From positions 1 to 64,000 of IMG/VR virus record IMGVR_UViG_3300023174_004605: a stretch of 64,000 nt of DNA. One strand, given 5' to 3'. Below are positions 22,390-42,077 of this stretch, in pieces. Position numbers and translations under genes: made by a program. Origin of the DNA: a virus. Below the pieces are notes generated by a model. It saw nothing but the letters and a program-made list of their open reading frames with translations. It was not told where the DNA came from and searched no databases. Numbering within the stretch: the stretch's first letter is position 1; each line of letters opens with the position of its first letter.

Positions 22390-24147
22390 ATGAAAGGCAG
22401 TCAATACGTAGCGCAGTTTCTCAAAGCCGTAGGAGCCACCAATGTGTTTGTGGTGCAGGGCGGTGCATGTGCATTCATGCTGGATGCCGTGGCGCTGGAA
22501 CCTGGCATGCGGTATACATGTTTTCAACACGAACAAGCAGCGGCCATGGCTGCAGATGCGTTGTGGCGCACCAACAAACAACTGGGTGTGACCTTTTGTA
22601 CTAGTGGTCCCGGGGCCAGCAACTTGATAACTGGCATCGCCTGTGGCTACTATGATTCCATACCCAGCCTGCACATCACCGGGCAGGTCAACTACGAAGA
22701 GCAAAAACTCTACAGGAATGCACCAGTACGCCAGGCCGGCTTCCAGCAGATGGACATAGTAAGCATGGTACGGCCAGTGAGCAAATATGCTGTAGCTGTT
22801 ACAACACATGACGAAATGCGTCGCGAACTCAAACGTGCAGTAGAAGAGGCCTACGCTGGTCGCATGGGACCAGTGGTAGTAGACATTCCCATGAATCTAC
22901 AAAATGCCGAAATGGACAACAGTGAACTGTTGTTGCCCAAAGCAGTGGTTCCGGTAGATACACAAGTTTCTATCACAGAATTGGCCAATCGTATAACAGA
23001 ATTTTTTTCCGAAGCACAAAGACCCTTGGTGATATTTGGTGCTGGTGTGGGCCTGGCAGGCACCGAGACAGCTCTGGAATCATGGTTGAACAAAAATCAT
23101 ATGCCCTTTGTGGCCACCTGGGCCAGCCTAAATTATTTCAATCATGATACAAGCAACTATATTGGACACTTTGGTGTGTATGGCAATCGTGGTGGAAATT
23201 TTGCTGTTCAAAATGCCGACCGTGTCTTGGTCTTGGGATCAAGGCTGGACAATCGTCAACGGTCTGGTAATCCCAACAACTTTGCACCGCAGGCGGACAT
23301 ATTTGTTGTAGATCTTGATCCTGCTGAACTAGAAAAACTTGATCCAGAAAAATATCAGTATCAGGCCTGCTTTGATCTAAGACGTCTTGCAAAGGTGTTG
23401 GATGGCGTGCAAGTACCCGAGATATCATCCACATGGGCAAGTTATCTATATTTAATGAAATCACGGTACTTCAACAAAGACACTAGTAGCTACAGTCTCA
23501 ACAAAGGCACCATGAGTCCTTATCTTGTAGTCGAACGGTTACAAGAGCTTGCTGATTCGGATGCCATCATCACCACAGATGCTGGTGCCAACCACTGCTG
23601 GGTGTATCAAACGTTTTATAAAAACAGTAATCAATTGCTTATGACCAGCAGTGGACACTATGCCATGGGCTATGCTTTGCCGGCCAGCATAGGAGCTGCC
23701 TTAGTAGAACCTGGCCGCCAACAGATCTGTTGCAATGGTGATGCAGGTATACAGATGAACCTACAGGAACTGCAAACCGTCAAAGAATATGATCTTGACA
23801 TCAAGGTTGTAATTTTTAACAATCATGGTCTGGGCATGATCAAACAATTCCAAGACACCTACATGGGTGGGCGTTATGCAGGAACTGATCAAGGGCCAGG
23901 TCGGCCTGATTTTGTCAAGATTGCTGGTGCCTTTGATTTTGATTATGCTCGAGTGGTCGGCTTGGACCAGGTTACTGCGGATTTGTTGAGACCCGGTCGC
24001 AGAATCATAGAAATCATGATCGACCCAGGTTGTCAGATTGAACCCAAATTAGAAATGGGTCGTCCTATCAATGATCAAAGCCCTTTGGTTTCTGACGAGG
24101 CATTTGCCGAGGGCAATCCTTTCTTCCACTACGAGCGACGCCGTTGA
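22390..24147 (+). CDS. Acetolactate synthase-like TPP enzyme (possibly YerE-type)
   Basis: A 585-residue thiamine-diphosphate enzyme with the three-domain IlvB layout. The catalytic Glu lies in CFQHEQAAAMAADA, FCTSGPGASNL follows, and the TPP motif CCNGDAGIQMN…VVIFNNHG lies near residue 450. Free-standing IlvB is possible, but the adjacent RfbH-like dehydratase recalls YerE, which adds an acetyl unit from pyruvate to C4 of a 3,6-dideoxy-4-ketosugar in yersiniose synthesis. An IlvN regulatory subunit is absent, favouring the sugar role. AAGGAA ribosome site before ATG 22390. Confidence 0.75.
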   Translation: MKGSQYVAQFLKAVGATNVFVVQGGACAFMLDAVALEPGMRYTCFQHEQAAAMAADALWRTNKQLGVTFCTSGPGASNLITGIACGYYDSIPSLHITGQVNYEEQKLYRNAPVRQAGFQQMDIVSMVRPVSKYAVAVTTHDEMRRELKRAVEEAYAGRMGPVVVDIPMNLQNAEMDNSELLLPKAVVPVDTQVSITELANRITEFFSEAQRPLVIFGAGVGLAGTETALESWLNKNHMPFVATWASLNYFNHDTSNYIGHFGVYGNRGGNFAVQNADRVLVLGSRLDNRQRSGNPNNFAPQADIFVVDLDPAELEKLDPEKYQYQACFDLRRLAKVLDGVQVPEISSTWASYLYLMKSRYFNKDTSSYSLNKGTMSPYLVVERLQELADSDAIITTDAGANHCWVYQTFYKNSNQLLMTSSGHYAMGYALPASIGAALVEPGRQQICCNGDAGIQMNLQELQTVKEYDLDIKVVIFNNHGLGMIKQFQDTYMGGRYAGTDQGPGRPDFVKIAGAFDFDYARVVGLDQVTADLLRPGRRIIEIMIDPGCQIEPKLEMGRPINDQSPLVSDEAFAEGNPFFHYERRR

Positions 24148-27606: not shown

Positions 27607-28845
27607 ATGGCTAAAATAGGATTCATTGGTATAGGTAAACTTGGGCTAGATTGCGCCGAAGTATTTGCAGAAAAGCACGAAGTACGCGGTTACGACATTT
27701 ATCCACGCACCAGCGACAGTGTAAAAGTATGTGATATTCAAGAATTAGTCAACGAAAGCGAGTGGATCTTTATTGCTGTGCCCACTCCGCATGCCGAAGG
27801 CTACGATGGCAGTGTTCCGTCAAGCCATATGACTCCTCGAGATTTTGGTCATGATGCAGTTATTGACGCTATCGACAAAGTCAATGCTTATTCTCAAACC
27901 AGTAAAAAAGTCGTGCTGATCAGTACAGTATTGCCTGGCACCACACGCAAAAAATTCATAACACGTTTAGATCCTAAACACGAGTTTGTTTACAACCCTT
28001 ACTTGATTGCCATGGGTTCAGTCAAGTGGGACATGGTCAATCCAGAGATGATCATGTTGGGCACGGAGGATGGTAGTTTAACTGGTGTTGCTGGCGAACT
28101 CCGAGCACTGTACGAAACAATCATGCAAAACGATCCACGCTATGAAGTTGGTACCTGGGATGAGTGCGAAGCTATCAAGATTTTCTACAATACATTTATC
28201 AGTGCCAAGGTAGGTCTGGCCAACATGATCCAAGACTTTGCGCTGAAGATTGGCAACATCAATGTAGACGTGGTAACCAATGCCTTGGCCAAATCAACCA
28301 TGCGTATCATGGGACCCAAGTACATGACAGCAGGCATGGGAGATGCCGGAGCATGCCATCCCAGAGACAATATTGCCTTGCGTTGGTTGGCCGAGGAGTA
28401 TGATATTGGTTATGACTTGTTTGACACAATCATGCACGCTAGAGAAATCCAAGCAAAAAATCTGGCTCTGTTCTTAGTAGATCAGGCTCAACGTCATAAC
28501 TTGCCTATCGTCATACATGGCAAGGCCTACAAGCCAGATGTAGAATACTGCATTGGATCTTATTCAACCCTAGTTGGGTTTTATGTCCGAGAGGCCGGAT
28601 TGCCGGTGGTCTATGTTGATCCTTTGGCTGATGATCGCAACGGGTGTTTGGATTCCATTGATGGACCTGCGGTGTTCCTTTGGGCACACAATCGTAAAAT
28701 CACCTACGAATACACCGGAGATCAGGCCGACACACAACCTTACTGCCAAATCCAGCCCGGCAGCGTGATTGTGGATCCATGGCGCAAATTACCCATTGAC
28801 ATGCCAGGTATTTCTGTAGTACACTATGGTAATACCAGACTTTGA
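27607..28845 (+). CDS. UDP-glucose/GDP-mannose dehydrogenase family
   Basis: A 412-residue enzyme oxidising a nucleotide sugar to the uronate. KIGFIGIGKLGLDCAEVFA is the NAD site, GAGDAG-like MGDAGACHPRDN contains the catalytic Cys, and GKAYKPDVEYCIGS begins the C-terminal domain. It is preceded by AAAGGA and a 57-nt gap that may hold a weak promoter. It would supply an acidic sugar for the glycosyltransferases. Confidence 0.88.
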   Translation: MAKIGFIGIGKLGLDCAEVFAEKHEVRGYDIYPRTSDSVKVCDIQELVNESEWIFIAVPTPHAEGYDGSVPSSHMTPRDFGHDAVIDAIDKVNAYSQTSKKVVLISTVLPGTTRKKFITRLDPKHEFVYNPYLIAMGSVKWDMVNPEMIMLGTEDGSLTGVAGELRALYETIMQNDPRYEVGTWDECEAIKIFYNTFISAKVGLANMIQDFALKIGNINVDVVTNALAKSTMRIMGPKYMTAGMGDAGACHPRDNIALRWLAEEYDIGYDLFDTIMHAREIQAKNLALFLVDQAQRHNLPIVIHGKAYKPDVEYCIGSYSTLVGFYVREAGLPVVYVDPLADDRNGCLDSIDGPAVFLWAHNRKITYEYTGDQADTQPYCQIQPGSVIVDPWRKLPIDMPGISVVHYGNTRL

Positions 28846-30625: not shown

Positions 30626-31642
30626 ATGAAATATGTTCTCATTGATACCGCCAATATGTTCTTTCGGGCCCGACACGGCGCTTTCCGTGCCGCAGACACC
30701 TGGGAAAAGCTGGGCTTTGCCTTGCATGTCACGCTGATGGCTGCCAACAAGGTGGCCCGTCGTTTTGAAGCTGATCACATGGTTTTTGCCCTGGAAGGGC
30801 GAAGCTGGCGCAAGGACATGTACAAACCCTACAAAAATAACCGCGCAGTAGCACGCCAGGCCCTTACAGAAAACGAACTGGAAGAGGACAAGCTGTTCTG
30901 GGAAACCTATGATAATCTGACTAAATACTTGTCTGAAAAGACCAATTGCTCAGTCATTAGGTGTCCAACAGCAGAGGGCGATGATATCATAGCCCGCTGG
31001 ATCGCATTACATCCCCAAGATGAACATGTTGTTATCAGCAGTGATACTGACTTTGTTCAACTAGTAGCACCCAATGTCAAGCAATACAATGGAATCACCG
31101 ACGAACTGATCACCATAGAAGGAATCTTTGATGCCAAAGGTAAACCAGTTATTGACAAGAAAAGCAAGGAGCCCAAGACGATACCTGATCCGCAATGGCT
31201 ACTGTTCGAGAAGTGTATGCGTGGCGACAGCTCAGATAACGTGTTCTCGGCATTCCCGGGCGTTCGGACCAAAGGCACCAAGAACAAGGTTGGCTTACAA
31301 GAAGCGTTTGCTGACAAGAATAAAAAGGGTTACAACTGGAACAACATGATGTTACAACGCTGGACGGATCCAGATGGTGTAGAGCATAGAGTGTTGGATG
31401 ACTATGAACGCAATAGAACCTTGATTGACTTGACAGCACAACCAGACGACATCAAGGCCAAAGTGGATGCGGCCATACGTGAACAGATCAGCCACAAGGA
31501 TGTGGGTCAGGTGGGTGTGCGATTCATGCAATTCTGTGGCAAATATGAATTAAACAAATGCAGTGAATCAGCCGAAAGTTTTGGACGCTGGATGAACGAA
31601 ACATACAAAGGCGTGTTAAATGACAACTCAAATGATAACTGA
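30626..31642 (+). CDS. FEN-family 5'-3' exonuclease (T4 RNase H-like)
   Basis: A 338-residue flap nuclease that removes RNA primers from Okazaki fragments. KYVLIDTANMFFRARH supplies the first acidic residue, AEGDDIIARW, SSDTDFVQL and MRGDSSDNV the other metal ligands, and the last begins the helix-3-turn motif. YKPYKNNR is the arch/bridge region. It fits with the gp43- and gp45-like replication proteins. The start is fixed by the leaderless promoter and by M-K-Y-V-L-I-D. Confidence 0.9.
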   Translation: MKYVLIDTANMFFRARHGAFRAADTWEKLGFALHVTLMAANKVARRFEADHMVFALEGRSWRKDMYKPYKNNRAVARQALTENELEEDKLFWETYDNLTKYLSEKTNCSVIRCPTAEGDDIIARWIALHPQDEHVVISSDTDFVQLVAPNVKQYNGITDELITIEGIFDAKGKPVIDKKSKEPKTIPDPQWLLFEKCMRGDSSDNVFSAFPGVRTKGTKNKVGLQEAFADKNKKGYNWNNMMLQRWTDPDGVEHRVLDDYERNRTLIDLTAQPDDIKAKVDAAIREQISHKDVGQVGVRFMQFCGKYELNKCSESAESFGRWMNETYKGVLNDNSNDN

Positions 31643-33646: not shown

Positions 33647-34018
33647 GTGCGTGACAAACATCTACTGACACAACAACTCATCGAGCTCTTGCCCGAGGCC
33701 GATCGTGTGCCTATAGATGCGGCCTTGCCAGCCTGGTGGTTCAACATCCGACGTACCGGTGGCATGCGATTGACAGGCATTGGATATGATGTATTGTCTC
33801 GTCGGTTGGACCTCGAAAACTACGAGTATGCCATCACAGATCCTTTGACTTTCAACAAGCGTCTCATGCTCAAATTGGATAGGAAAATGCAGATGCCCTA
33901 CTATATTTCGGCCACCAAAGGCATACCCAAAAAGATCGTGTTTTTTGGAAGCCGAGAAGCGGTCATGGTCAATCTCTACGGTAATTTGGAACAATTTCTT
34001 GACAACTACGGGCCTTGA
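33647..34018 (+). CDS. Unknown phage protein (123 aa)
   Basis: GTG 33647 is the earliest reasonable start; the gene follows the previous stop by four bases. MRLTGIGYDVLSRRLDLENY looks like a winged-helix-type or helix pair, followed by FNKRLMLKLDRKMQMPYYI and a strand (KIVFFG). Small T4-like phage proteins of this outline are known to me without firm function. Its last codons contain the promoter of the tRNA downstream. Confidence 0.5.
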   Translation: MRDKHLLTQQLIELLPEADRVPIDAALPAWWFNIRRTGGMRLTGIGYDVLSRRLDLENYEYAITDPLTFNKRLMLKLDRKMQMPYYISATKGIPKKIVFFGSREAVMVNLYGNLEQFLDNYGP

Positions 34019-34027
34019 TGCTATACT
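33999..34027 (+). promoter_or_regulatory. Consensus sigma70 promoter for the first tRNA
   Basis: Perfect TTGACA (33999-34004), 17-nt spacer and TATACT (34022-34027), nine bases before the tRNA 5' end. Confidence 0.8.
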
Positions 34028-34035
34028 GTAATCAA

Positions 34036-34123
34036 GGGCCGAACGCCGTATTGGTTGCAGGCAGCGGACTCATAATCCGCCTCAGAAATGACACTGTGGG
34101 TTCAAATCCCTCTCGGCCCACCA
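34036..34123 (+). tRNA. tRNA with CAT anticodon and a long (class II) variable arm
   Basis: Acceptor GGGCCGA (34036-34042) pairs with TCGGCCC (34113-34119), discriminator A, encoded CCA. Anticodon stem GCGGA/TCCGC with loop CTCATAA, as in elongator tRNA-Met. The variable region 34081-34095 is 15 nt and can form TCA-GAAA-TGA, a class II arm seen in Leu, Ser and Tyr tRNAs but not in Met or Ile2. One T·T mismatch sits in the T stem. Amino-acid identity is therefore uncertain (Met, Ile2 if lysidinylated, or Leu-like). Confidence 0.85.
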
Positions 34124-34795: not shown

Positions 34796-35068
34796 ATGGC
34801 ATTCGACACTTTAACAAGTTTTGCTCGACAGCTAACAACTGCAGAAGAGACTTCAGTCCAAAACTATGTGACGACTCAAATGGGGTCAGGAACAACCAAT
34901 GGTATATCGTATAGTGTTCAACGAACCGGAGTAACCACCGCAGAAGGTCAACCCTTAGCACTCATTCTTCGCGGGTGGGTTGATGAAAGCTCAGCCAACG
35001 CCTATATAGCATTTTTGAATACTTTTAGCCCGGCGCCGGTTTATGCACAGACGGTGCAATCTGTATAA
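34796..35068 (+). CDS. Unknown protein under a late promoter (90 aa)
   Basis: Soluble, Thr/Ser-rich protein with a helix (TLTSFARQLTTAEETSVQNYV) and then beta strands (GISYSVQRTGVT, LALILRGWV). It has its own late promoter and strong ribosome site, as expected for an abundant late or virion-associated protein. Not recognised. Confidence 0.6.
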   Translation: MAFDTLTSFARQLTTAEETSVQNYVTTQMGSGTTNGISYSVQRTGVTTAEGQPLALILRGWVDESSANAYIAFLNTFSPAPVYAQTVQSV

Positions 35069-35072
35069 TACC

Positions 35073-35102
35073 TAGACTGGCAAAGTAAAATTGTAGTATA
35101 AT
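35073..35102 (+). promoter_or_regulatory. Probable promoter of the tmRNA
   Basis: A perfect TATAAT (35097-35102) with a weak -35 candidate TAGACT (35073-35078, 18-nt spacer). Confidence 0.5.
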
Positions 35103-35108
35103 GCCTTG

Positions 35109-35420
35109 AAAGAAAGGTGTTGCGGACCTGGGGGCAGAACCCAGCAGGTCCACCATAAAGAAATTACATAGACATTGATCATAGTTGTAATTGCATTGGT
35201 CTTCCATGTATTGAACAATTAGTTTCTTTATGATGGGCCTGACACAGTTTCGACGTGGCAACAAGTATGGACAGGATCTACACGGCAAAGCAGAAGCCGT
35301 AGGACTGGGGATTCCTGGTCGTAGAAGCAACCTTATTAAATGCAAACGCATCTAATGACGAGGTTTTTGCCTTAGCGGCATGATCTCCGGGGCAACTATG
35401 CCTTGTCACCCAAACTAGTC
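35109..35420 (+). ncRNA. ssrA: Circularly permuted (two-piece) tmRNA
   Basis: The acceptor piece comes first: T stem CTGGG/CCCAG (35128-35132, 35140-35144), then CAGGTCC and ACCA ending at 35155. The coding piece starts GGGCCTG (35235-35241), which pairs with CAGGTCC, and continues GACACAGTTTCGACG. The 79-nt spacer is closed by ATAAAGAAA/TTTCTTTAT (35155-35163, 35223-35231). GCAACA (35258-35263) pairs with TGTTGC (35118-35123) as helix P2. The tag frame 35342-35383 encodes ANASNDEVFALAA and stop, a proper ClpXP-type tag. Outer ends are approximate. It would release stalled ribosomes during infection. Confidence 0.93.
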
Positions 35421-35422
35421 TA

Positions 35423-35448
35423 AAAAGCCTGAGAAATCAGGCTTTTTT
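35423..35448 (+). terminator. Rho-independent terminator after the tmRNA
   Basis: Stem AAAGCCTGA/TCAGGCTTT with GAAA loop, followed by a T run. Confidence 0.9.
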
Positions 35449-35470
35449 GTTGGCCACTAAGTAAAAACCA

Positions 35471-35477
35471 CTAAATA
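35471..35477 (+). promoter_or_regulatory. Late-type motif CTAAATA before the porin
   Basis: Located about 50 nt before the porin start, in the intergenic gap, with AAAGGAAAA as ribosome site at about 35510. Confidence 0.45.
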
Positions 35478-35525
35478 AAGAGTTGGGTGATCACCCAGCA
35501 TTCTTTTAAAAGGAAAATCTCAAGC

Positions 35526-36266
35526 ATGAAAAAATTATTAATCGCATTAGCCTTGTCCGCTGGCTTGGTTGCCTCGGCTCAAGCTCAACTCACCGGCAAT
35601 TTAGGTTTGACCAGCGACTACCGTTTCCGCGGTGTTAGCCAAACTCAAAATGCTCCTGCAGTTCAGGGCGGCATCGACTATGCACACAAGAGTGGCTTCT
35701 ATGTTGGTAACTGGAACAGCTCGGTCTCTAGCCAAGTCTACACCTCAGGTGCAGGTTTAGAAAGTGACTTGTATGCTGGTTACAAGAAAGAAATCTTCAA
35801 GGGCATTAGTATTGACGTTGGTAGCTACAATTATTTCTATCCACGTGCAACCACTTCCGCAAAAACTGGTTCAAACTTTGACACCTATGAAGGCTATGTC
35901 GGATTGGGTTACAAAGATATCATCTCTGCCAAGTATAGCAGAACCTTAGGCGAAGGCTACTTTGGTACAGCCAATGCACAAGGCACAACTTACATGCAAG
36001 CAGATGGCAAGTTGCCAGTTCCTGTAGTAAAAAATCTAGCTGTTGTTGCGCACTATGGTCGCACCAATGTGGCCAACAGCACAGCATATGATTACAATGA
36101 CATCAATGCTGGTTTTGTTTACAGCTTACCAAAAGACTTTGACTTGAGCGTGAAGTATTTTACCAATACTGGCACAACAAGAACTTTCGAAACTGCAAAC
36201 ACTGTGAGCGGTCAAAAGCTATACAAAAACGCAGTGGTAGTTGGCTTGACAAAAACTTTCAATTAA
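35526..36266 (+). CDS. TorF-type outer-membrane porin-like protein
   Basis: The start at ATG 35526 gives a classical signal peptide (MKKLLIALALSAGLVASAQA, cut before QLTGN). The mature part of about 226 residues begins LTGNLGLTSDYRFRGVSQTQ, the signature of the 'TorF family putative porin' of Proteobacteria, and is built of aromatic-ended beta strands, ending VVVGLTKTFN with the C-terminal Phe/Asn of barrel proteins. A phage copy of an outer-membrane protein could alter host permeability or receptor access; host acquisition is likely. Terminator follows directly. Confidence 0.85.
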   Translation: MKKLLIALALSAGLVASAQAQLTGNLGLTSDYRFRGVSQTQNAPAVQGGIDYAHKSGFYVGNWNSSVSSQVYTSGAGLESDLYAGYKKEIFKGISIDVGSYNYFYPRATTSAKTGSNFDTYEGYVGLGYKDIISAKYSRTLGEGYFGTANAQGTTYMQADGKLPVPVVKNLAVVAHYGRTNVANSTAYDYNDINAGFVYSLPKDFDLSVKYFTNTGTTRTFETANTVSGQKLYKNAVVVGLTKTFN

Positions 36267-36718: not shown

Positions 36719-36794
36719 CGCGGGGTGGAAAAGTTGGCATTTCGTCAGTCTCATAAGCTGAAGGTCGTCGGTTCGAATCCGACCCCCGCAACCA
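36719..36794 (+). tRNA. Initiator-derived tRNA-Met (CAT)
   Basis: Acceptor TGCGGGG pairs fully with CCCCGCA, discriminator A, encoded CCA. The body closely follows E. coli tRNA-fMet (…GGGGTGGA…, CTCATAA loop, GAAGGTCGTCGGTTC, CCCCCGCAACCA). But the diagnostic C1·A72 mismatch is a U1-A72 pair, and the three G:C pairs of the anticodon stem (GGG/CCC) are replaced by AGT/GCT. It may act as an altered initiator or an elongator. Confidence 0.9.
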
Positions 36795-37821: not shown

Positions 37822-37898
37822 ACCCCGGTGGCGCAACAGGCAGACGCACTCTCCTCAGAAGGGAGCTGTTGAAGGTTCGAATCCTTCCCGGGGGACCA
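37822..37898 (+). tRNA. tRNA-Leu (CAG) with a short variable loop
   Basis: Anticodon stem CTCTC/GGGAG with loop CTCAGAA, anticodon CAG. T arm GAAGG/CCTTC. The acceptor pairs over six bases (CCCCGG/CCGGGG) with an A·G mismatch at 1:72; discriminator A and CCA. The variable loop is only five nt (37866-37870), although Leu tRNAs are class II. The D arm (GCGCAACAGGCAGACGC) is Leu-like. Confidence 0.85.
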
Positions 37899-39529: not shown

Positions 39530-40450
39530 GTGGCAGTACTGAGCACTTGGCTGTACTTGATCTTGACCGGTCCAGGGTTTGAGTTGTATGAAACACATTG
39601 GCTCTATGCTCTAATGATGGTGTTTGGTTCGGCTGTAGCCGGCTTTACTCCCGAAGGCGGCGGCGCTGTGGCGTTCCCTATCTTGAGCTTGTATTTTAAC
39701 ATACCACCAACAGCGGCCAGAGACTTTAGCTTGGCCATACAAAGCATTGGAATGGTATCAGCGGCCATATGGATCCTAACAAGGAAAGCACATGCCCTAA
39801 GAACATTTAGACACATACCGTTTTATGCGGCTGTGAACATGATTGGTTTTGTGCTCATGACTGCTGTAGCAGGAGCCTTTGCTTTCAAAACCATACAGAT
39901 GTTGTTTGTGGGCTTGGCCCTGGCATTTATTGTAGCTTACCTAGTCAGCCGTGGGCGTGGAACGGTAGATGACGTGGAACTTTCTGGAACTAGATTTGTG
40001 ACTTTTGCTGTGTTTTCATTCATAGGTGGCTGTGCCTCTGCCATGTTTGGAACTGGAAGTGACATGTTGATCTACATAGCCTTGACCTGCTACTATGGTA
40101 TGAAAGAAAAGATCAGCACCGACATCAGCATTGTCCTCATGGCAGTGGTCACAGTGTTTGGTATTGCTTATCGTAGTTTGTTTTTAGACGCGGTGCATCC
40201 AGATGTTTATTTGATGTGGTTAGCGGCCGCACCGGTGGTGTTGTTCTTTGCTCCATTTGGTAATATCTTGTTAGGCTGGGCACGCAAAGAAACTATGCTT
40301 TACACCGTGCTGGCCATGAATGCAGTGAACTATTTTTATTTTATAAGTAAAAATATGAATTTGATTGTGCCAACCTTGATTACACTTGTTGTGTTTACAG
40401 CAATGTTTGTTTCAAGTTTTTATGTCAAAAACAAACTAAAACATGATTAA
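39530..40450 (+). CDS. TauE/SafE-family membrane permease
   Basis: A roughly 306-residue protein with about eight hydrophobic helices. GSAVAGFTPEGGGAVAFPIL is the N-terminal TauE/SafE signature, repeated in degenerate form as FIGGCASAMFGTGSDMLIYI, as expected for the internal duplication. The family exports sulfite or organosulfur anions. GTG 39530 is the first standard start but cuts into the first helix and lacks a ribosome site; ATT 39497, right after the upstream stop, would give TKKIIWPIWAV and has GGGGA upstream, so the true start may be there. Confidence 0.85.
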   Translation: MAVLSTWLYLILTGPGFELYETHWLYALMMVFGSAVAGFTPEGGGAVAFPILSLYFNIPPTAARDFSLAIQSIGMVSAAIWILTRKAHALRTFRHIPFYAAVNMIGFVLMTAVAGAFAFKTIQMLFVGLALAFIVAYLVSRGRGTVDDVELSGTRFVTFAVFSFIGGCASAMFGTGSDMLIYIALTCYYGMKEKISTDISIVLMAVVTVFGIAYRSLFLDAVHPDVYLMWLAAAPVVLFFAPFGNILLGWARKETMLYTVLAMNAVNYFYFISKNMNLIVPTLITLVVFTAMFVSSFYVKNKLKHD

Positions 40451-42077
40451 AAAAATTGTGATAGTAGGTGGCGGATTTGCTGGGTGGTATACAGCAGTTT
40501 CGTTGCAATACAACCTTCCAGAATTAGAAATCATTATCGTCGACAGCGAAAAGCATCCTACCATTGGAGTTGGAGAAACTGTGGGCTGGGATGCCCCGCT
40601 CAACTTACAAAGATTATGCGGCTTATCAGACGACCGACTTTTTATGTACGAGACCGGAGCCGTATACAAGTTCGGTGTAAGAGGCATTAACTTTTTTTCT
40701 GATAATTCGATTCACCGATGGGGGAAATTCCTAAACCTCAAAACATCAGCGTTGTGCAATTACTATAACGAATTTGATTATTCTGATTTTGATGAACCTT
40801 GGAATCGATCTCCCAATGACATTGGCACAATGAAAGCATGGTTGATTCGGTATCATGCCATGAAAAATTATGAAGATTTGTGTCTTGACTTAGGAGAATT
40901 AAATCATTTTTTAACCGAACCGGTGGCTCCTTTCAATCGCAACAACAAATACGTTTTGCGATCAGCACCAGGTCATGCATTTGGATATCATATTGACGCA
41001 GAAAAGTCAGGGGTTTTCTTGAAAAAAATAGCCTATCAAAGAAACACTGGTAAACTTAAACACATCACCAGCAGTGTTGTCAATGTTGCACTTGCAGATA
41101 ATGGTTCAATAGAAAAAATACAATTAGAAAACGGAGAAAATATCACCGGCGATTTATTCATTGATGCCTCTGGACTGCAACGAGTGATTGTGAGTCGCAG
41201 CACAAACTACAGTTGGACCGGCAAGGACCATAGATATTCTAATGCAGCATGGGTATGTCCTAGTCGCTACACTGATCCAACCAAAGAATTAATAGGTGCC
41301 ACTGAATTTATCGGCGACACATGGGGATGGCGATTCAAAATTCGATTGTTTCATCGTATAGGCAATGGTTATGTTTTCAATTCCGATCAAGTTGATCCAG
41401 AGAAACCATTGGCCACTATAAACGCCGCAACTAAAACAACACAACTCAAGGAGCCTAAACTTATAAGATGGTCTCCTGGCGAGTATGTGCATCATTGGCA
41501 TAAAAATCTTATTCCCGTAGGTATGGCAGCGAGTTTTATTGATCCTTATGATGCTCCAACTTTTGATGCGCACAGTCGATCACTTGATGATTTGTTAGAT
41601 TTGTTAAAAAATCCAAACAAATATAAAAACCCTGCAGAAGAATACAACAAACGCAGATCTTATACCGCAGAAGAAAGGAATCTACGTTTAGATATAACAT
41701 TCGGTATATCTCAACGTTCCGGTCCATATTGGGATTTACGTCGACAAATAGCACAGGAAAAAAATTGTTTGCGTGAACTAAAAAACATTATTTTAGAAAA
41801 AAGACTAGACCTCGAATCAAGGATGACCTGGCACTGGCATCAACAATATATTAGATCCGCTATGGCGGCCAAAGTAGACATGACCGATTGGGAGTTTCCT
41901 AAAGTGCCCGATAAAGACCTCGACATGCTGACAGCATTTTATAATTTCAATAGGCAACGCAACAAACACATTACACAACAAGAATGGCCAAATTACTCAA
42001 CATGGTTGCAACAAAACCGATTTAATGATCAGACCAACCAACAGGTTTTGCAAAGACTACAACCACAGCTTTGTTAA
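40443..42077 (+). CDS. Tryptophan-halogenase-like flavoprotein
   Basis: A 544-residue protein of the FAD-dependent halogenase family. IVGGGFAGWYTA is the FAD site; PTIGVGETVG the next block; YKFGVRGINF near residue 82 contains the Lys equivalent to PrnA Lys79; WGWRFKIRL resembles the WxWxIP motif with the Ile-Pro altered; GMAASFIDPYDAP is the flavin loop. Chlorination or bromination of an indole-like compound is typical, but the altered motif makes the reaction uncertain. Markedly AT-rich; overlaps the permease by 8 nt. Confidence 0.85.
   Translation: MIKKIVIVGGGFAGWYTAVSLQYNLPELEIIIVDSEKHPTIGVGETVGWDAPLNLQRLCGLSDDRLFMYETGAVYKFGVRGINFFSDNSIHRWGKFLNLKTSALCNYYNEFDYSDFDEPWNRSPNDIGTMKAWLIRYHAMKNYEDLCLDLGELNHFLTEPVAPFNRNNKYVLRSAPGHAFGYHIDAEKSGVFLKKIAYQRNTGKLKHITSSVVNVALADNGSIEKIQLENGENITGDLFIDASGLQRVIVSRSTNYSWTGKDHRYSNAAWVCPSRYTDPTKELIGATEFIGDTWGWRFKIRLFHRIGNGYVFNSDQVDPEKPLATINAATKTTQLKEPKLIRWSPGEYVHHWHKNLIPVGMAASFIDPYDAPTFDAHSRSLDDLLDLLKNPNKYKNPAEEYNKRRSYTAEERNLRLDITFGISQRSGPYWDLRRQIAQEKNCLRELKNIILEKRLDLESRMTWHWHQQYIRSAMAAKVDMTDWEFPKVPDKDLDMLTAFYNFNRQRNKHITQQEWPNYSTWLQQNRFNDQTNQQVLQRLQPQLC

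Follow-up and report, generated by a model that had tools for sequence, protein, structure and literature searches.

The DNA analysed here contains a phage-borne gene that most probably encodes tRNA-Ile2, the decoder of AUA codons, with a class II variable arm. From sequence comparisons, we put the probability of this reading at roughly 90%. Textbooks confine the long variable arm to Leu, Ser and Tyr (and Sec) tRNAs. A preliminary description of the gene likewise took the arm to be normally limited to Leu, Ser and Tyr. This is the accepted rule, stated for Leu, Ser and bacterial Tyr, with the nev-tRNAs of nematodes as a known exception (PMC4033280). Hence, the exception posed by the gene is real. 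The gene, its fold, its family, its slot and its promoter are directly visible in the DNA. Judging from the sequences compared, the class II arm is a lineage trait of this type of tRNA-Ile2, and no mark of Leu, Ser or Tyr identity.

A class II tRNA gene with its own promoter

The window, meaning the whole stretch of DNA analysed, takes in positions 1-64000 of a viral record that is 95,736 bp long and belongs to a metagenome collection. ARAGORN finds an 88-nt tRNA with anticodon CAT, and the Rfam tRNA model (RF00005) matches the same positions (44.2 bits, E 4e-6 over the window). Coordinates of the gene and its parts are in Table 1. Read as a cloverleaf, the 5' half is GGGCCGA / ACGCCGTATTGGTTGCAGGCA / GCGGA CTCATAA TCCGC, and the 3' half is C-UCA-GAAA-UGA-CACU / GTGGG TTCAAAT CCCTC / TCGGCCC A CCA. 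The acceptor and anticodon stems are fully paired (7/7 and 5/5, respectively) and the T stem has one mismatch, U50.U64. As proposed earlier, a consensus promoter of its own precedes the gene. This promoter ends 8 bases 5' of the tRNA, and its -35 box falls within the end of an upstream ORF (33647-34018).

Table 1. Features of the tRNA gene and its surroundings (window coordinates)
Feature	Coordinates	Strand	Basis
5'-3' exonuclease gene, synteny anchor, 2.4 kb upstream of the tRNA	30626..31642	+	PF02739, phrog_107
Sigma-70 promoter TTGACA-N17-TATACT, 11/12 consensus matches	33999..34027	+	Same promoter ahead of sister-phage class I tRNA-Ile2
Class II tRNA, anticodon CAT, read as tRNA-Ile2 (AUA decoder), 3' CCA encoded	34036..34123	+	ARAGORN, RF00005, family alignment
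G3, C4 and C5, paired with G68, G69 and C70 (34115-34117); TilS identity pairs	34038..34040	+	Alignment; determinants from PMC12514573
Anticodon CAT in loop CTCATAA (34069-34075); C34 is the presumed lysidine site	34071..34073	+	ARAGORN, alignment
15-nt variable region: C, stem UCA (34082-34084), GAAA loop (34085-34088), stem UGA (34089-34091), CACU	34081..34095	+	Compensatory changes, 43 sequences
Discriminator A73	34120..34120	+	Alignment

Other genes in the window are of separate interest. There is a tmRNA gene at 35062-35474 (Rfam permuted tmRNA, RF04321, 106.5 bits; ARAGORN tag ANASNDEVFALAA). A class I initiator-like tRNA, with a C1.A72 mismatch and A11:U24, lies in the phage tRNA cluster at 36719-36794. 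Metabolic-type genes are found at 22390-24147, 27607-28845, 35487-36266 and 40443-42077; their products are a thiamine pyrophosphate enzyme, a UDP-glucose dehydrogenase, a Gcw_chp protein and a tryptophan halogenase.

The long variable arm is conserved

We collected the family by searching with a degenerate pattern that covers D arm and anticodon loop. The pattern recovered class II CAT genes in 23 viral contigs and 115 stretches of bacterial genomes. The bacterial carriers that can be named are Paraburkholderia, Ralstonia, Cupriavidus, Trinickia and a few records titled Burkholderia sp. All three pairs of the variable stem form in each of the 43 distinct 88-nt family members (column shuffles gave a mean of 20-22 and a maximum of 28-31). 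Each pair occurs in two or three forms (U-A, G-C and A-U; C-G, G-C and A-U; C-G and A-U) and the loop is mostly GAAA. The tertiary pair 15:48 also covaries, as G-C or A-U, in 43/43. Pair 8:14 is A-U in every one of the 43; the usual tRNA pair is U8-A14.

Two objections had been anticipated. The first, that a better fold might have a normal variable loop, is not borne out. The minimum-energy fold of the window tRNA keeps four arms but has a different variable hairpin (CAG/CUG), and we prefer the UCA/UGA stem because covariation across the 43 members decides for it. The second, an assembly error, is dismissed because independent phage contigs (L211, L217 and L033) and more than 100 bacterial stretches carry nearly the same gene. 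The long arm is a conserved class II arm, and neither an insertion nor an assembly slip. The class II CAT tRNA first described, with a 15-nt variable region and a TCA-GAAA-TGA hairpin, is thus confirmed by ARAGORN, RF00005 and covariation.

Class II and class I genes share a slot in related phages

We compared 80 related phage loci, anchored on the exonuclease gene. In ten loci, the exonuclease is followed at 1.3-2.7 kb by a class I CAT tRNA (L122, L123, L125, L133, L136, L142, L145, L146, L163 and L166). All ten tRNAs have the loop YTCATAA and A73, and most have the acceptor GGGCCNN. The exonucleases of the sister phages with class I tRNA-Ile2 are about 81-92% identical. In the window, and in L140, the class II gene occupies the slot where sister phages hold class I tRNA-Ile2. 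Furthermore, the window promoter also precedes the class I gene in L122, L123, L125, L136, L142, L163 and L166. The flanks agree: the window has GGAACAATTTCTTGACAACTACGGGCCTTGATGCTATACTG before the class II gene, L122 has CAACAATTTCTTGACAACTACAAGCCTTGATGTTACAATG before the class I gene, and the upstream gene end is shared. Hence, we regard the phage class II gene as a swap within one slot. Note that L140 also encodes a separate elongator-Met-like tRNA, with loop TTCATAC. A few phage class II relatives have A4:U69, or U5, instead of C4 or C5, a point against the tRNA-Ile2 reading.

The class II gene lies behind rpoD in bacteria

A single conserved gene precedes the class II gene in 97 bacterial loci, and we read it as rpoD from inspection of two rpoD-linked loci. 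This arrangement behind rpoD, found in Paraburkholderia, Ralstonia and Trinickia, accounts for most of the 115 stretches. The same slot can hold class I tRNA-Ile2. Such genes occur in L472-L480 (GGGCCGG AAGCTTAATTGGTATAAGCT GTCGA CTCATAA TCGAC CGAYA GTGGG TTCGARTCCCACCCGGCCCACCA) and in Cupriavidus G003 (GGGCCTC...GAGGCCC). Beyond the upstream rpoD in bacteria, we found no conserved partner gene that might be the sign of a special tRNA system; plasmid neighbours vary.

In Ralstonia G001, the CAT genes found besides the class II gene were two initiators and a single elongator Met (GGCGAAT, C3:G70). A UAT tRNA was not found in this genome. The census is not proof, because G001 is a draft in which some expected tRNAs (Tyr and Gly-TCC) are also missing. 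With a widened pattern, we then checked 12 class II genomes (G001, G002 and ten more, including P. xenovorans LB400), a UAT tRNA being excluded for the draft G001 alone. All class I tRNAs with a CTCATAA loop that turned up were initiators. Hence, no candidate for the essential AUA reader is visible in the 12 genomes apart from the class II gene. Cupriavidus has class II tRNA-Ile2 as an additional copy, located on plasmids or a plasmid-like contig (L281 and L337-L339, for example megaplasmid pHG1). Cupriavidus G003 has the class II gene on a plasmid-like contig, together with the chromosomal class I tRNA-Ile2 behind rpoD. The only-candidate claim is therefore confined to rpoD-linked genomes. 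The tilS gene is present in G003 and in both class II genomes tested for it (G001 and G002). Separately, two isolate-type viral contigs (L206 and L212) have a bacterial-form class II gene near the contig end, possibly marking a site of prophage attachment.

Identity determinants point to tRNA-Ile2

The pairs C4:G69 and C5:G68 were shown biochemically to be TilS identity elements for E. coli, with G3:C70 in addition for B. cenocepacia (PMC12514573). DETERMINANTS All three pairs are present in the window tRNA, in the acceptor GGGCCGA/UCGGCCC. As in tRNA-Ile2, the anticodon is CAU, with C34, in a CUCAUAA loop. The tRNA is of elongator type, with a paired 1:72, Y11:R24 and A73. The short class I variable loop usual for tRNA-Ile2 is absent (15 nt with a hairpin), a feature that we do not treat as defining. 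The elements U12:A23 and C29:G41, which we take to be minor determinants for E. coli IleRS, are also absent, and this counts against the tRNA-Ile2 assignment.

Other isotypes were considered and rejected. Initiator tRNA-fMet requires a 1:72 mismatch and A11:U24, whereas the window tRNA has G1:C72 and C11:G24. Elongator tRNA-Met is rejected by the tRNA-Ile2 slot, and by G3:C70 as opposed to C3:G70 in the host gene described above. For tRNA-Ser, the D stem GCC/GGC is similar. However, the window tRNA has A73 and a 3-bp arm, while Ralstonia tRNA-Ser has G73 and arms of 18-22 nt. A tRNA-Tyr body is rejected by determinant and identity tests. For tRNA-Leu, we took the LeuRS determinants as A20a, A15-U48, G18G19 and A73 (E. 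coli), with A14 for mitochondrial and E. coli tRNA-Leu. The window tRNA has A73, but U14 and U20a replace A14 and A20a. Between the variable arm and T stem, it has 4 unpaired nucleotides; most Ralstonia tRNA-Leu have 2. Its nearest relative is the host (Ralstonia) class II CAT gene, identical at 79/88 positions, compared with 60-61/88 for Ralstonia tRNA-Leu. A Leu body is rejected on these three grounds. They also speak against the earlier suggestion that a Leu-type body reads Met codons as Leu.

Predicted function and alternative explanations

We suggest that the consensus promoter in front of the window tRNA, which sister phages conserve, would drive its transcription. Host TilS would then convert C34 to lysidine; tilS was not found in the 95.7 kb phage record. 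Host IleRS would charge the tRNA with isoleucine. We infer both lysidine formation and isoleucine charging, for class II tRNA-Ile2, from the sequence features set out above. The product could supply AUA decoding to a phage that is rich in AUA relative to Burkholderiaceae-type hosts. Briefly, AUA occurs 19.0 times per 1000 codons in the phage and 2.3 times in Burkholderiaceae loci, and makes up 32% and 5% of Ile codons, respectively, a comparison that assumes a related host. The phage G+C content is 44%. AUA reading by way of lysidine, one of two options first put forward, thus gains support from phage synteny, bacterial rpoD synteny, TilS determinants and codon usage.

Alternatively, the tRNA might escape TilS and be charged by MetRS, adding to the elongator tRNA-Met that reads AUG. 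MetRS recognises its tRNAs mainly by CAU. Moreover, methionine can be attached to tRNA-Ile2 that lacks the modification, against which MetRS orthologs discriminate by only 2- to 2000-fold (PMC12514573). We nevertheless consider this very unlikely. The slot and lineage of the gene are those of tRNA-Ile2, the host elongator Met is a different gene, and B. cenocepacia MetRS favours tRNA-Met over tRNA-Ile2 about 600-fold. Furthermore, AUG use is equal in the phage and the Burkholderiaceae loci (20.3 and 21.6 per 1000 codons).

Phage tRNAs that evade anticodon nucleases have been reported. The window tRNA could similarly be a decoy, a nuclease-resistant tRNA or a non-translational substrate, with the arm as a shield from host tRNA-cutting defences. 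Unusual class II tRNAs of other isotypes, in the phage contigs sampled, would fit. Yet the same form is an ordinary rpoD-linked tRNA in many bacteria, and a translation-competent cloverleaf and CCA end are conserved; this explanation is highly improbable. Note that nuclease protection could be an added benefit, and is no alternative to decoding.

We give almost no credence to a Leu-type tRNA with a shifted anticodon that inserts leucine at AUG or AUA, like the nematode nev-tRNAs; A73, the long arm, A15-U48 and the leucylated nev-tRNA-Gly(CCC) (PMC4033280) would favour it, but U14 and U20a stand where E. coli LeuRS requires adenines, arm geometry and identity point away from host tRNA-Leu, and the class II gene takes the place of an essential Ile tRNA in Paraburkholderia and Ralstonia.

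Comparison with known tRNAs

Class II tRNA-Ile2 resembles the TilS-modified bacterial tRNA-Ile2(CAU) in CUCAUAA, C4:G69, C5:G68, the Burkholderia-type G3:C70, A73, the elongator 1:72 pair and its gene slots. It differs in the variable arm (15 nt, where the rule is 4-5 nt) and in the D arm (GCC/GGC, with A8 and U14 instead of the usual U8:A14). The L472-type class I genes have an acceptor and T arm in common with class II genes, but a 5-nt variable loop and an 11-nt D loop, compared with a 12-nt D loop in class II. They also fit the published B. cenocepacia tRNA-Ile2 (G3:C70, C4:G69, C5:G68, G51:C63 and an 11-nt D loop), and the class II form has the same four pairs. The published B. cenocepacia tRNA is lysidinylated in vitro by TilS of both B. 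cenocepacia and E. coli (PMC12514573). The published assay looks to concern the class I relative, a limit on its weight for the class II form.

Other unusual tRNAs are known. The nematode nev-tRNA-Ile(UAU) and nev-tRNA-Gly(CCC) also have a class II arm on the anticodon of a class I isotype (PMC4033280). However, nev-tRNAs are poorly expressed and nev-tRNA-Gly is leucylated, whereas the class II gene here replaces tRNA-Ile2 and is without Leu determinants. Group I introns interrupt tRNA-Ile2 of Acidovorax and Burkholderia, the same gene family in the same bacterial order, and equally hard for tRNA finders (PMC8450103). In that case an intron lies in the gene; here, the arm belongs permanently to the tRNA and its pairs covary. 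The tRNAscan-SE 2.0 paper describes these introns and mentions no class II arm. We found no description of class II tRNA-Ile2 in the open-access literature searched; specialists browsing tRNA databases may already be aware of it.

Annotation tools label the class II CAT gene tRNA-Met, a likely misannotation that the tRNA-Ile2 reading corrects. If this reading is right, an essential isoleucine tRNA of whole bacterial genera has a class II form, and phages carry an AUA reader demanded by their own codon usage. TilS, IleRS, MetRS and the ribosome would therefore accept or reject the class II form there by other marks. The natural exchange of class I and class II tRNA-Ile2 at one position, on acceptor stems that match, makes it possible to test what the arm contributes to identity.

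Origin of the gene and other phage tRNAs

In a quick tree, bacterial class II genes are nested inside phage ones, although with only 88 columns the tree does not settle the direction of transfer. Class II tRNA-Ile2 might have arisen in phages. A phage copy would then have displaced the essential class I gene at the rpoD slot in bacteria ancestral to Paraburkholderia, Trinickia and Ralstonia. We hold this idea, which the tree allows, to be rather doubtful. If true, an essential host tRNA was taken over by a phage-shaped one.

In phages, variable-arm length appears to be loosened from isotype. Among the class II CAT tRNAs of viral contigs L002-L121, at least 22 distinct ones have the marks of initiators (a 1:72 mismatch and A11:U24), for example in L048, L052 and L098. 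Class II arms also occur on phage tRNAs of Asn (GTT), Ile (TAT), Cys (GCA), Thr (TGT) and Lys type (L005, L021, L023, L037, L041, L043, L069, L080 and others), in a sample biased by the choice of contigs, which were picked for having a class II CAT tRNA. Their discriminator is mostly as the anticodon predicts. The reverse case is seen in the window at 37822-37898, where a tRNA-Leu(CAG) has a Leu-like D arm, yet a 5-nt variable loop and an A1.G72 mismatch. Short-loop tRNAs with Leu anticodons are also present in L047, L018, L032, L044, L053 and L062.
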